From positions 1 to 38,917 of the IMG/VR virus record IMGVR_UViG_3300045927_000279: DNA of 38,917 nt; one strand, written 5' to 3'. Positions 4,096 to 18,674 of the stretch are shown piece after piece. Under the pieces are notes generated by a model. It was not told the origin of the DNA, searched no databases, and saw only the letters and a program-made list of their open reading frames with translations. Within the stretch, counting starts at the first letter, position 1. Every line of letters starts with the position of its first letter. The position numbers and the translations under genes are program-made. This DNA is from a virus.

Positions 4096-4485
4096 ATGGA
4101 AATCCTCTTCATCTGGTTCATCTGTGGCGTTATCAGTGCCGTTGTCGCCTCGAACAAACACCGCAATGCCTTTGGTTGGTTTTGTCTCGGAATGTTGCTC
4201 GGACCCTTTGGCATCATCCTGGCACTCGTGATGCAGGCAAAAACCTCGGAAGTTGAGCGCGATCTGCGTGCACATGGTCTGATTCGTGATTGTCCTTTCT
4301 GTGCGGAAACCATTAAAGCTGCCGCGGTCAAATGCCGCTTTTGTGGCTCGGATCTTCCGCCGGTGAACCACACCAACACTCCGGAAGCCTCCCAGGATCG
4401 GAGTCTACGGCAGGTCTCTGAGGATATTCACGCCTGGATTGACCGCTTACCGCCGGTCCAGTCACCTCACAACGCCTCACGCTAA
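4096..4485 (+). CDS. Two-pass membrane protein with cytoplasmic zinc ribbon
   Basis: 129 residues. Two hydrophobic segments (about 2-18 and 28-47) are followed by a short linker and a zinc-ribbon knuckle, CPFC(66-69)...CRFC(80-83). This superfamily of TM-plus-zinc-ribbon proteins is common in bacteria without an assigned role. AAAGGA precedes the ATG by 9 bases. It belongs to the RHH-controlled plus-strand cassette and lies between the small membrane protein and a lipoprotein gene. Modification of the lysogen's envelope is an inference from this company, not shown by the sequence. Confidence 0.75.
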   Translation: MEILFIWFICGVISAVVASNKHRNAFGWFCLGMLLGPFGIILALVMQAKTSEVERDLRAHGLIRDCPFCAETIKAAAVKCRFCGSDLPPVNHTNTPEASQDRSLRQVSEDIHAWIDRLPPVQSPHNASR

Positions 4486-13765: not shown

Positions 13766-14473
13766 CTACTCCCTTTCTTCGCGCTGCACGCTGCGTCCGT
13801 GCGCCTTGTACAGGTCGGGCCGCTCGGCAATGGCGCGCTCCAGGCCCTCCGCCTCGGTTTTCACCACCCCTTTGGCGACATACGAGCGTCCCAGGGCTTC
13901 GAGCTGCTGCAAGGGCGCCTCGCCCCCAGTCGGCACGCCATCGCGGCCCCAGGTGCGGGTGAGTCCGGCCTGGCGGCCAAGTTCGTCGGCGGCTTTGAAC
14001 AGCGTGTCGAGCCGCTCTTGCACCGGCTGCGGCAAGGTGGCCAGGCCCTTGAAGACTTCCCAATCGTCGTCGGGATTGACCGGCAAAAACTTGAAGCTGC
14101 GCGCCTTGGCGATGTAGAGCACCTTCTGGCGCTCGGCTTTTTCCAGGGCCACCGCCTCTTCGGCGCGTTTGGCGCGGGCTTCGGACTCTTCGACGCGCTT
14201 GCGCACGACGTCGGATACCCCCTTCCAGATGTCCTCGGGATCGGGGGGCGTGAGTTGTTTCACCTGCTCGGTGAGCGTCGCGATCTGCGCTTTGGCCTCG
14301 CCAAGCTGCTTGATGACGGCCTCATGGGTGGCTTTGTCTACCGTCTCAGGCGGCATATCCTCCTCCTCTCCTGGGGGGGCACTTTTATACAGGAGCACGT
14401 GCGCTTCCTGGTTGGCGCCTTTGGGCACCAGGGCAATTTTGGTGATGTGGAGCTGTTTAAGCCGCTGGGGCAT
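13766..14473 (-). CDS. Capsid scaffold protein
   Basis: 235 residues from ATG 14473 (GGGAGG about 9 bases upstream). The N-terminal motif HITKIALVPKGANQEAHVLL resembles the short Val-x-x-Gly-Ala-Asn segment found near XkdF-type proteases. After it come an acidic linker and a long coiled coil (QLGEAKAQIATLTEQVKQLT; VEESEARAKRAEEAVALEKA) and a helical C-terminus rich in Arg/Glu. This is the composition of internal scaffolds. It lies just after the protease gene and before the decoration and capsid genes. The assignment rests on composition and order. Confidence 0.8.
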   Translation of the reverse strand: MPQRLKQLHITKIALVPKGANQEAHVLLYKSAPPGEEEDMPPETVDKATHEAVIKQLGEAKAQIATLTEQVKQLTPPDPEDIWKGVSDVVRKRVEESEARAKRAEEAVALEKAERQKVLYIAKARSFKFLPVNPDDDWEVFKGLATLPQPVQERLDTLFKAADELGRQAGLTRTWGRDGVPTGGEAPLQQLEALGRSYVAKGVVKTEAEGLERAIAERPDLYKAHGRSVQREERE

Positions 14474-14696
14474 CCCCCTGGCCCTCCCTGGCGAGCAGTT
14501 GCGCCCGGACAAAGCAATCTTTGGCCTCCAGGAGCTTGCGCAGTCCTACCGTCAACTCGCGACTATCGGGCAGCAGCTCCACCATGTGCTGCGCCAAACG
14601 CTGGCAGGGTTCGCTCAGTGGTATGAGGTCCTGGGGCAGATGGTGCCAGGGAAAGAATCCGAGCAACTCCCGCGTGGCGATGTTACGATCCAGCAT
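14457..14696 (-). CDS. Conserved small phage protein between protease and scaffold
   Basis: 79 residues from ATG 14696 with GGGAGGA 8 bases upstream. It has the recurrent phage pattern HHLPQDLIPLSEPCQRLAQH followed by LPDSRELTVGLRKLLEAKDC. The C-terminal 'TVxLRKLLEAKDCxVR' is seen in small helical proteins of many siphophages, of unknown role. It overlaps both neighbours (14 and 17 bases), so it is translationally coupled to head-assembly genes. Confidence 0.8.
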   Translation of the reverse strand: MLDRNIATRELLGFFPWHHLPQDLIPLSEPCQRLAQHMVELLPDSRELTVGLRKLLEAKDCFVRAQLLAREGQGDAPAA

Positions 14697-15300
14697 CGTT
14701 GAGGTCCTCCCTGACTCCACGGCCTTCAATCGAAAACATCAGCAATCCGCCATCCTTCGCCATGGTATAGTCGGCCTGATCGGGCAGGTGATAGCCCACC
14801 CAGGCCCCGAGCGGCACGGTGCCGGCGGGAATGCCCATCTTTTCCAGCTTGTCCGGGGTGAACACGAGCGCTTCCACGAGCTGGCCACGGGTCGCGCCCG
14901 CATGGTCGAAGTTCAGCTCGCCGGACTCCTGGACATAGGCATACATCGCCGCTTCCAGGTCCTCGATGGCGATCACATCGCCTTGCAGGTCGATCACCGG
15001 CGTGCCGTCTTTCGCCACCGCCACGCTGGCCCAGCCAAACACGAGCTGGCGGGCATCGTCGGCTTTGCTGATGGGGATCTCCATGGTCGTGGCCGTTTTG
15101 TCGATCTCGTGCCACATCTGTGTCTCCGGGTCCTGCCGGTAGTGCTGCTTCACCTGCGCCCAGGCCGAGGCAAAGGCGCGTTCGGTGCTGAGGCCGCGTT
15201 CTTCCTGCGTATTGACGATATGCATGAACATCCGCTGTGCTTTGGCCGGAAGATGAGAGCGCACCGACTCCGGTAACTCGCTCACACTGCGATAGGGCAT
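14683..15300 (-). CDS. ChaB domain + XkdF-like putative prohead protease
   Basis: 205 residues in two domains. Residues about 1-55 are ChaB-like (MPYRSVSELPESVRSHLPAK, ERAFASAWAQVKQHY). Residues about 75-200 are XkdF-like (ARQLVFGWASVAV, DLQGDVIAIEDLEAAMYAYV, GELNFDHAGATRG, GAWVGYHL, FSIEGRGV). XkdF-like proteins are regarded as phage serine proteases for capsid maturation; the catalytic residues are not certain here. The fusion with ChaB occurs in other phages. Next gene overlaps by 14 bases. Confidence 0.85.
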   Translation of the reverse strand: MPYRSVSELPESVRSHLPAKAQRMFMHIVNTQEERGLSTERAFASAWAQVKQHYRQDPETQMWHEIDKTATTMEIPISKADDARQLVFGWASVAVAKDGTPVIDLQGDVIAIEDLEAAMYAYVQESGELNFDHAGATRGQLVEALVFTPDKLEKMGIPAGTVPLGAWVGYHLPDQADYTMAKDGGLLMFSIEGRGVREDLNDAGS

Positions 15301-15804: not shown

Positions 15805-15819
15805 GGGCGGTTCCCCGTA

Positions 15820-16223
15820 AGCGACCCAAGGCTGAAGCTCTTGGGCTTTGCCACTAGATGGGAGGGCTTATCATCAACATCCACCTGCGACTAAATCAGG
15901 GTGGCTTACTCTTGAGCCTGCAAGCAGACTCGATACGATTCACCCCTAGTTCCGGGCATTACACCCGGAGCGTTCCGTACAAGCAGGAAACTTCTCTGTT
16001 TTTTACCAGGCAAGGAGATTGAGTTGCCTGAACCAGCAAAACAGACTTGTCAAAGACCCAACACAAGCACAACCGTTGCTCGCCGAAGCGAGTGTCTTTT
16101 TGCTTGTACAAAAAGTGTATCCAATCCAAGCATGGCACTACCACTAAAAGTGCATCCCACCCGCGAGGCTAAAGCAAGAAAGCCTCTCATATCCCAAGCC
16201 TCAAGGCTTGGGTTTCACGAGGC
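15820..16223 (-). mobile_element. Non-autonomous palindrome-ended element, IS200/IS605-like (long copy)
   Basis: About 404 bases with no recognisable gene. One end (16193-16223) is a hairpin, CCCAAGCCT/AGGCTTGGG, followed by TTTCACGAGGC. The other (15821-15860) is a hairpin CCCAAGG...CTTGGG next to CCACTAGATGGGAGGGC. Both ends match a 94-base element at 35587-35680 in opposite orientation. Subterminal hairpins without inverted-repeat termini are typical of IS200/IS605-family ends. The inner sequence (minus strand) has the look of a tnpB/iscB-associated non-coding region, but I cannot prove it. It holds no transposase. Confidence 0.6.
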
Positions 16224-16232
16224 ATTACTATG

Positions 16233-16505: not shown

Positions 16506-18674
16506 CTAGTCCGCCGCCAGCAGTGACGGCGTATACGGCGACAGACGACGCCGCGCGAACGTCAGTACCACGGCGCAGCGACAGGCCGGATGCGCGGCTG
16601 GATGCATGATGGGGCCAATCGGCGTCTGGAAGGGCTCGTGCAGCCCCACGCCGTCCGGGTTCATGCCTGGGATAGCCCGACAGATGGAACAATTGTGTAC
16701 GAGGATATCTTCAGCAAAAAAATGATGCTCTTTTTCTACTGTAATATCATAAACTGTTATTGTATAATTAGTTATAAGTTCTTTTATCAACTCTTGAAGC
16801 TTCTTGACATGCCGTTTACCTATTCCTGCACACATTGCAGACAACAATTCACCAGACGTGATAGTCTCAATGGAAGAAATCCGTATTGTTCTCGGAAGTG
16901 CTTTGGTCTGAAGAAAACCAAAAGATATTCTTTTACATGCGAACATTGCGGCATCATCTTTTATCTTCCAGCAAAAGGATTGCCAAAAAGACGGCGTTTT
17001 TGTTCCAGAGCTTGCTATTATGCTGGGGTAGAAAAAGAAACGGTCACGAAGATCTGTCAGATATGCCAACAACCGTTTACCATTCCCAGGGTTGTTGCTG
17101 AAAGATATACGGTCTGCTCGTTGGCCTGTCGCCATCGAGATATCATCGACATCCCCTGCCGCCAGTGCGGCACAACCGTCCGGTGGAGTCCCGCCAACCC
17201 TGATAAACGTTTCTGCTCGTTTGCCTGCTATCGCCGCTTCAGTGGAGAAACAGGGCTGGAAGAAACCATCAGAAAAGCTCTGGAACGCTTGCCGATAGCG
17301 TTCATCCAGGAGGGCAAAGTCTCCGGCATCCGCTCGACCATCGATTTCTTGCTGCCTGAACTCGGCGTTGCCCTCGAAGTCGATGGCGTCTATTGGCATC
17401 AACAGACCTTTGAACGCGACGTGCGCAAAACCACGGCCTTGCAGCAACGAGGATGGATAGTCATCCGCCTCGCCGAAATCGAGGTGCACAACGCGCTCGA
17501 TGTGACAGAACTGTTGTGTGAACGTTTGCACCTCACTCCCGATCTGCAAGGCATCAGCCCGTTGCCAATGCCCCCTGCTCCACACGAGATGGTCAGCCGT
17601 CATGATGAGCAAGCGCCCGTGCGTCGTCGCCGCAAGCACCAGGACACCACGGTAGTCCCTGGCAGTCGTGGCGAGCAATTGTTGCTGTCCTTCCTGCGTA
17701 CAGACGATGTCCCCAGGCTGTAAGGCTTCTATCGGACGTTCTCCATTGGGTGTCATAACCAGAGTGCCAGCAAGAAAACATGTTCTATCATCTGGAGTCA
17801 GAACCCACATGCGCCGTGCACGCCCACTATCGAGGAGCCCTTCCCGTTCGGCGGCCTCCCACAGCGCCTGTTGCCCGGCAGCCGCGGCGGTCATCGACTC
17901 GGTGCGGGCGATCAGCGCAGCCCGCTGGCGCAGAAGCTGGCTCGTCTGGCGTTCGACCCGTGCGACTAGCTTGTCTCCGGTCATGCCCCGGGCGATCAGG
18001 CCCTCGCGAAAGCGCTTGACCTGGCCGACCTGGCGCGGCGTCAGCCCGGTGAGGGCGCGTACGTGGCTGGCCGCCTGGGCCGGGGTCTGGAGTGGCGTGG
18101 TGATCGGCACCTGCTCGATGATGCCCCGCACTTCGCGCTGCAACTGGCCAATGGTCCGGCCATGCGCCATGGCGTCGCGCACCGCCGTCCCCAGGGCGTC
18201 GCGAGTGGTCTGGGTGATCTGGGTCACCAGGGATCCACTATGCTGCTCGGCCCACAGAGCGGCACGCGGGGCCATGAGATCGCCGGTGAGGCGTGTCGTC
18301 ACCTGCTCCGGCGGTATTCGTAATCGTTCCAGACTGGCGGTGAAGCTCGTGCGTGCTCGGATGGCCGCCTGCTGGACGATCTCCTGCAGCACGGGCTGCA
18401 CCTGCACGGCGATCTGCGCCCGCACCACGAGATCCCAGGCGTCTACGAGCGCGGTGACCATCTCCGGCTCCGAGACCGATACCAGCAGGCTCTCCAGGCT
18501 CTGCCGCGTAAGCCCACGTTGCGCCTGGGCGAGCATGTCGCGTAGCCGTCGCTGTAGCTCGGGGCGCAGCCGGTCGGCAATGGCGTGCAGGGCGCGCCAG
18601 GCCGCTTCGTCGCTCGCCGGCAGGCGCGAGACGGCCAGGGGCACGGGGGCTTTGCGGATCAGGATGGTTGGCAC
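16506..18674 (-). CDS. MuF / SPP1 gp7-like minor head protein with embedded intein
   Basis: 722 residues from GTG 18674, which overlaps the portal stop as TAGTG with AGGAGGAG upstream; an upstream GTG at 18704 lacks a ribosome site. The exteins (1-298 and 662-722) form a MuF-type head morphogenesis protein: helical N-terminal body, LIARTESMTAAAAGQQALWE, then the family's WVLTPDDRT | CSICRAIPGM and terminal HPACRC. The intein (299-661) interrupts exactly at the conserved Cys motif. MuF proteins sit at the portal inside the procapsid and can be ejected with DNA. Without splicing, the zinc-like Cys motif and C-terminus would be split, so splicing is probably essential. Confidence 0.92.
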   Translation of the reverse strand: MPTILIRKAPVPLAVSRLPASDEAAWRALHAIADRLRPELQRRLRDMLAQAQRGLTRQSLESLLVSVSEPEMVTALVDAWDLVVRAQIAVQVQPVLQEIVQQAAIRARTSFTASLERLRIPPEQVTTRLTGDLMAPRAALWAEQHSGSLVTQITQTTRDALGTAVRDAMAHGRTIGQLQREVRGIIEQVPITTPLQTPAQAASHVRALTGLTPRQVGQVKRFREGLIARGMTGDKLVARVERQTSQLLRQRAALIARTESMTAAAAGQQALWEAAEREGLLDSGRARRMWVLTPDDRTCFLAGTLVMTPNGERPIEALQPGDIVCTQEGQQQLLATTARDYRGVLVLAATTHGRLLIMTADHLVWSRGHWQRADALQIGSEVQTFTQQFCHIERVVHLDFGEADDYPSSLLQGRGFAHVAFKGLLMPIDAIDFEGNAEFRQQEIDGRADAGDFALLDERYRQAFQSFSDGFFQPCFSTEAAIAGKRAETFIRVGGTPPDGCAALAAGDVDDISMATGQRADRISFSNNPGNGKRLLAYLTDLRDRFFFYPSIIASSGTKTPSFWQSFCWKIKDDAAMFACKRISFGFLQTKALPRTIRISSIETITSGELLSAMCAGIGKRHVKKLQELIKELITNYTITVYDITVEKEHHFFAEDILVHNCSICRAIPGMNPDGVGLHEPFQTPIGPIMHPAAHPACRCAVVLTFARRRLSPYTPSLLAAD
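16692..17780 (-). other. Intein in the MuF gene (363 residues)
   Basis: Block A starts CFLAGTLVMTPNGERPIEAL (Cys1, codon 17778-17780). Block B has the TxxH motif as TADH (intein residues 61-64). Block F/G is YDITVEKEHHFFAEDILVHN with penultimate His and terminal Asn (codon 16692-16694), followed by Cys+1. All class 1 splicing residues are present. Only about residues 1-80 and 325-363 look like splicing domain. The middle 245 residues lack LAGLIDADG or other known motifs and are the exact antisense image of a plus-strand endonuclease gene. Confidence 0.92.
16809..17723 (+). CDS. Homing-endonuclease-like protein encoded antisense within the intein
   Basis: 304 residues, starting MPFTYSCTHCRQQFTRRDSL. 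Four zinc knuckles follow a CxxC-n-CxxxC pattern: Cys 7/10/27/31, 44/47/65/69, 83/86/103/107 and 117/120/136/140. A DUF559/Vsr-like PD-(D/E)xK nuclease core follows at about 150-245: STIDFLLPEL, ALEVDGVYWH, RDVRKTTALQQRGWIVIRLA. The C-terminal 60 residues are the complement of intein block B and may be passenger sequence. The gene lies wholly inside the intein on the other strand. An AT-rich leader has TATAAT at 16763-16768; the ribosome site is weak. The likely role is homing of the intein allele by cutting intein-less MuF genes. Function is inferred. Confidence 0.82.
   Translation: MPFTYSCTHCRQQFTRRDSLNGRNPYCSRKCFGLKKTKRYSFTCEHCGIIFYLPAKGLPKRRRFCSRACYYAGVEKETVTKICQICQQPFTIPRVVAERYTVCSLACRHRDIIDIPCRQCGTTVRWSPANPDKRFCSFACYRRFSGETGLEETIRKALERLPIAFIQEGKVSGIRSTIDFLLPELGVALEVDGVYWHQQTFERDVRKTTALQQRGWIVIRLAEIEVHNALDVTELLCERLHLTPDLQGISPLPMPPAPHEMVSRHDEQAPVRRRRKHQDTTVVPGSRGEQLLLSFLRTDDVPRL

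Follow-up and report, generated by a model that had tools for sequence, protein, structure and literature searches.

Fractured genes, in which split inteins occur together with Vsr-like endonucleases, were reportedly described by Dassa et al. in 2009 (cited in PMC12350094). In the literature, intein endonucleases are described as fused to the intein when translated (PMC3943268, Fig. 1 legend) and as placed at one conserved point of inteins (PMC6801210). Antisense homing endonuclease genes are known from nuclear group I introns of myxomycete rDNA (Dsq.L2066 and Dir.S956-2; PMC9548176), and introns are also the setting for which collaborative homing has been described, i.e., a nuclease that stands free of the nuclease-less element but is already adapted to its insertion site (PMC2988022). 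Our search of the open-access literature returned no antisense endonuclease in an intein and nothing on an intein with MuF, in agreement with a first, sequence-only reading of this DNA that knew of no described example. Within the open literature, we found antisense homing genes only in group I introns, and the two-strand intein element reported here is apparently undescribed.

The element lies in the window, by which we mean the whole stretch of 38,917 nucleotides of IMG/VR record IMGVR_UViG_3300045927_000279 that was analysed. The intein and the 304-codon plus-strand ORF inside it have the coordinates assigned by the sequence-only reading, with the refinement that the conserved nuclease core is 16809-17540: homology stops near 17540, and the final ~60 codons of the plus ORF are read-through facing N-terminal HINT codons. 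The features are as follows:

16506 to 18674, minus strand: MuF-type head morphogenesis gene, 722-aa precursor including the intein, GTG start (PHROG 3517, E 5e-20; Pfam Phage_Mu_F, E 1e-6)
17781 to 18674, minus strand: N-extein of MuF, 83% identical to the intein-less siblings L002-L006
16692 to 17780, minus strand: intein of 363 aa, Cys1 to Asn363, directly 5' of the MuF CxxC cysteine (Hint_2, E 2e-10; Intein_splicing, E 8e-7; intein_Cterm, E 9e-7; empty sibling site)
17541 to 17780, minus strand: N-terminal HINT segment, 80 aa, with Cys1 in block A and T61-x-x-H64 in block B (C1, T61 and H64 invariant over 24 inteins; pLDDT 92-97 for residues 1-100)
16815 to 17456, minus strand: intein residues 109-322, a linker antisense to the nuclease, predicted to be disordered (pLDDT < 50)
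16692 to 16808, minus strand: C-terminal HINT segment, 39 aa, VYDITV...ILVHN (VHN invariant in 24 inteins); the plus strand contains the putative nuclease promoter
16506 to 16691, minus strand: C-extein of MuF, from the +1 Cys of the CxxC motif (CSICRAIPG) to the stop codon, abutting the N-extein in L002-L006
16809 to 17723, plus strand: antisense nuclease ORF, 304 aa, with CxxC zinc knuckles and an EDxHD/Vsr-like nuclease (DUF559, E 2e-5; Vsr, E 2e-3)
16763 to 16768, plus strand: TATAAT, a -10-like hexamer for the nuclease within intein codons, without a good -35 (consensus match only)

MuF is a single uninterrupted frame running from the GTG at 18674 to the stop at 16506, with the intein as residues 299-661 and the C-extein kept in frame downstream. 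The intein is continuous, as had been proposed, and the two separate coding frames of a split intein or fractured gene are not present: there is one 722-aa frame with 0 internal stops. The residues of a class 1 intein are in place (C1, T61xxH64, H362-N363 and the +1 Cys), and all are kept in 24 aligned inteins. Five sibling contigs (L002-L006), whose MuF is ~80-83% identical, carry intein-less alleles with exactly joined exteins, their flanks being contiguous at ...VLTPDEKL|CSICRAIPGMNPDG; in the DNA alignment, 1096 bases of the window do not align, made up of the 1089-bp intein and 7 diverged bases, and the siblings have 7 in their place. A group I ribozyme was not detected, with 0 Rfam matches in the window at the gathering score. 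AlphaFold, run on the alignment of 24 inteins, predicts a HINT fold with high pLDDT at both ends (~93-95 for the last ~25 residues) and values below 50 across the stretch common to both strands, and the best Foldseek match of the HINT model is the gp41-1 intein (6QAZ, E 3e-7). The predicted splicing domain consists of about 80-100 N-terminal and 39 C-terminal residues, close to the earlier estimate of about 80 and 39, and inteins seem to tolerate a disordered insert of ~200 residues. Judging from these sequence features, the intein would be expected to splice.

In the plus ORF, CxxC zinc knuckles are followed by a DUF559/Vsr-like nuclease, the two parts under which the protein had first been described. 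Besides the domain matches in the window (DUF559 is found in 23/24 nuclease members and Vsr in 11/24), the family profile matches PDB 3R3P (I-Bth0305I) with E 3.5e-16, and the nuclease model aligns to 3R3P with a TMt of 0.77 in Foldseek, where Vsr was also matched. The zinc knuckles are presumed to be the DNA-binding part, and from its sequence we infer that the nuclease would cleave the MuF site. Many new zinc-finger EDxHD-type endonucleases are indicated by this family.

How does the locus compare with the described systems? As in fractured genes, so far as these are reported, a Vsr/EDxHD-type endonuclease lies between intein halves, and the nearest fold here is that of the gp41-1 intein; unlike in fractured genes, host gene and intein form one uninterrupted frame and the nuclease overlaps it in antisense. 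The large inteins with an in-frame endonuclease, such as PI-SceI, share the HINT domain and the location of the endonuclease DNA between its N- and C-terminal parts, and the insertion point here is apparently their conserved endonuclease insertion point (PMC6801210). Unlike in the PI-SceI type of fusion (PMC3943268), the endonuclease has its own gene on the other strand: it is not translated in the precursor frame, and the minus-frame linker facing it is predicted to be disordered. This contradicts the textbook view, in which an intein carries its endonuclease as a domain within one polypeptide. The nuclease domain is homologous to that of the EDxHD homing endonuclease I-Bth0305I (PDB 3R3P, 'mobile intron protein'), which is intron-encoded, whereas the domain here is intein-embedded, antisense and joined to CxxC zinc knuckles. 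Dsq.L2066 and Dir.S956-2 also have a homing gene of opposite orientation, expressed on its own, inside a self-splicing element (PMC9548176), but there the gene resides in an RNA intron of rDNA rather than in an intein, with no opposite-strand protein frame to keep open. Compared with collaborative homing, the present case would involve an intein and antisense entry.

The arrangement recurs. A nuclease search with an alignment that included two mycobacteriophage relatives gave 80 viral loci; among these, the loci nearest the window copy likewise have an intein on the strand facing the nuclease. A motif scan (CSExCRRPP) yielded further loci, leaving 24 after removal of near-copies (near-identical loci are 0 or 1 base apart), and a scan for the MuF-intein start added L199, L201 and the truncated L196. 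In total, 26 intein loci with an antisense nuclease (27 with L196) were obtained from many metagenomes, all of them picked by nuclease homology or the intein start motif and not by an open antisense frame. All these inteins are at one MuF site, 5' of the CxxC cysteine, and all are codon-aligned with the nuclease; typical junctions read D-x-R-T/V|C...VHN|CxxC, with AHN in L201. Where Pfam recognises the host protein, it is MuF or a portal-MuF fusion. Intein length among the 24 loci runs from 363 to 467 aa, and the G+C of their nuclease genes ranges from 30 to 66%. Every intein-borne case stems from IMG/VR contigs and none was found among 50,697 GenBank phage records, which may be why the arrangement has been overlooked so far; nuclease homologues elsewhere reach a best E of 2e-12. 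Viral contigs scanned with a single protein, either the nuclease or the complete intein, yielded 0 relatives, and the N-intein as a single query matched only Hint proteins and mini-inteins within large tail-like proteins. The family, the different allelic states at one site, the stop avoidance, the register constraint and the promoter-like sites in intein codons described below all go beyond the sequence-only reading.

Three side observations concern further inteins and nucleases. In L020-L035, from many metagenomes, a very large phage protein that resembles a tail-tip protein has a mini-intein after a stretch rich in glycine. Besides the intein with the antisense nuclease, MuF of L040 (2870-5836) seemingly has one more at a different conserved cysteine motif (...AHPL|CLPGD...VHN|CRCS). 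The contig of L045 (G003) contains a second, partial family nuclease with two in-frame stops (C1:17181-17678), probably a decayed copy.

With high confidence, the locus is best explained as a homing intein with an endonuclease that is expressed on its own from the other strand. MuF would be translated with the insert, and the HINT domain would fold, excise itself and join the exteins, leaving the antisense-coded middle as a disordered linker constrained only to lack stops. The nuclease would be made separately, in many relatives from a promoter and ribosome site within the C-terminal HINT codons, and would cut the uninterrupted CxxC site in the intein-less MuF of co-infecting phages; repair after the cut would then copy the entire intein into the empty allele. 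Homing, and the timing of nuclease expression, are likewise deduced.

Several allelic states exist at the same MuF site. In addition to the empty alleles of L002-L006, L205 has a nuclease-free mini-intein of 160 aa. The mini-intein of L193 (162 aa; around 4265-4293, start motif on the minus strand) retains ~50 codons of the nuclease C-terminus in antisense, as a remnant (E 3e-7 among 8 frames). L195, L202 and L203 have a 363-aa intein in which a related EDxHD-type nuclease is in sense and in frame (E ~1e-14). Together with the antisense inteins, these empty, mini, remnant and sense forms at a single site make it possible to test directly how homing inteins arise and decay. Close relatives of the nuclease are also found convergent to, and directly downstream of, an uninterrupted MuF (L039, L046, L169 and L174), 3 of them with 2 to 4 antisense stops. 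A nuclease gene in this convergent position likely entered a mini-intein where endonucleases are usually inserted, which would explain the origin of the element; antisense orientation derived from a convergent neighbour gene may be, by analogy, a form of collaborative homing (PMC2988022).

These same loci bear on a different, rather unlikely reading, in which the nuclease is an independent selfish gene that uses the intein as a safe harbour and cuts elsewhere, the intein spreading, or not, independently of it. Since the four free-standing nucleases adjoin an uninterrupted MuF, the target need not be the intein site; in a quick tree they are intermixed with intein-borne ones (e.g., L174 with L156 at 99), and the mini-intein of L205 has no nuclease. 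However, similarity of the nuclease tracks that of HINT (r 0.68) more than that of the extein (r 0.44), and close pairs are more alike in HINT and nuclease than in the exteins (58, 58 and 44%, respectively, for L176/L159), as expected under horizontal spread of the element. Moreover, every intein-borne member is at the one MuF site, and the free nucleases adjoin MuF as well, which makes MuF the likely target under both readings.

Very improbable, in our judgement, is that the nuclease frame is a non-expressed relic which the intein retains merely as a linker. The window copy has no close homologue in the bacterial genomes searched with the nuclease, and L193 provides an example of an inactive remnant. 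Against this, the zinc cysteines and the nuclease motif are invariant across 24 members despite ~40% identity, and over the same codons the nuclease frame is far more conserved than the intein frame. E147, E151, D179, E190, D192, H197 and D204 are invariant in the nuclease family and are candidates for the EDxHD catalytic residues, although H197 is opposite a non-His in 3R3P. The sequence-only reading had named a plus frame that is not translated and has no homologues as a separate protein as grounds for dropping the arrangement; the plus frame has many homologues, both free-standing and intein-borne.

Promoter-like sites argue against a relic too. In many loci they occur on the nuclease strand within the C-terminal HINT codons, upstream of the nuclease start (L157 has TTGACT-17-TATAAT and L161 TTGACG-17-TATAAT, for example). 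An AGGAG/GGAG ribosome site lies ~13-14 nt 5' of the start in several loci. The mean promoter score of the nuclease strand is 9.29; shuffling of synonymous codons lowers it to 7.62, and the highest of 300 replicates reaches 8.54. The C-terminal HINT segment has 28% G+C in the window versus 69% in the extein, and its G+C is below that of the extein in 24/24 loci. For the window copy itself, a stricter promoter scan listed none near the nuclease start, and no Shine-Dalgarno sequence was seen upstream of the start codon.

The homing intein also accounts for the coding pattern of the shared stretch. Where antisense frames are codon-aligned, minus-strand stops correspond to plus-strand TTA, CTA and TCA, and in the window the nuclease and intein frames have identical codon boundaries. 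The probability that the window nuclease has no antisense stop is ~8e-4 with the gene's own third-base usage and ~0.06 with the Leu/Ser usage of the phage; given the latter value, the window locus alone is only suggestive. Across 24 divergent loci, a first pass gave 0/726 Leu/Ser codons that are antisense stops versus 98.2 expected (log10 P -48.9), with the expectation based on each phage's own codon usage and codons treated as independent; a re-run with a second (family) profile, restricted to the 23 loci with enough reference codons, gave 0/652 versus 91.6 expected (log10 P -45). As a control, 59 homologues whose antisense frame is closed contain 535 antisense-stop codons versus 472 expected, a set defined by closure whose total stays near expectation once open ones are included. 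The avoidance is mostly absent in homologues outside inteins. Summed over the 24 proteins, unavoidable antisense stops number 0 in the codon-aligned register versus 61 and 97 in the other two. Identity between members is 40% in the nuclease frame and 21.3% in the antisense frame, where 20.8% is expected after synonymous shuffling, so there is hardly any selection on the antisense-coded linker beyond staying open; by this sequence comparison, the common stretch of the intein would need only to lack stops.

These numbers make it highly improbable that the MuF frame opposite a real nuclease is a shadow ORF open by chance, in a broken gene whose product does not splice. Codon-aligned antisense is indeed the easiest register to keep open, the linker is no more conserved than the nuclease dictates, and the chance of openness is about 0.001 to 0.06 for the window alone. 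Yet no antisense stop occurs in the 652 codons of the re-run, and C1, TxxH, VHN and the +1 Cys are present in all 24 aligned inteins, with the C-extein still in frame. An assembly chimera or sequencing artefact, the other worry raised for the MuF frame, can be practically dismissed: the window is a single metagenomic contig, but its junctions are clean against five siblings and the same arrangement recurs in 26 loci from other datasets.

A homing intein with an opposite-strand endonuclease could carry a further layer of control. Speculatively, and in our judgement less likely than not, three layers overlap (the intein, the opposite-strand homing endonuclease in the only permissive register, and its promoter inside splicing-domain codons), and the opposed transcription of late MuF and nuclease would time the nuclease by antisense interference. 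In phages, two proteins encoded opposite each other over a long stretch are rare; in this element the pattern has very strong statistics and follows a simple rule (TTA, CTA and TCA are avoided, and the frames are codon-aligned). Gene callers that bar long antisense overlaps could overlook such elements.

The distant mycobacteriophage relatives of the nuclease were considered as the same arrangement and rejected: they are antisense between two methylase-gene parts and no intein end motif was seen, so we treat them as a separate group. Related nucleases in L008, L009, L012, L013, L062, L065, L074 and L088 (and L057, L071) are antisense between two parts of a phage DNA methyltransferase gene or after its first codons, and intein end motifs are absent there too. 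The antisense frame of such methyltransferase-borne nucleases is open, with 1 antisense stop versus 32 expected in 11 genes, a set defined by openness; one idea is translational coupling across the insert. In mycobacteriophage Donovan, the antisense frame opposite the nuclease is annotated as gene 58 and overlaps its neighbours.

Elsewhere in the window, 252 bp (14453-14704) have no counterpart in L002-L004 and L006, which have about 30 bp there. A 416-bp insertion (15817-16232), missing in L002-L004 where the flanks are contiguous, contains CCCAAGCCTCAAGGCTTGGG-like palindromes, has 0 Rfam matches and looks like a small mobile element; a stretch 67% similar to it is present elsewhere in L006 (8859-9023).
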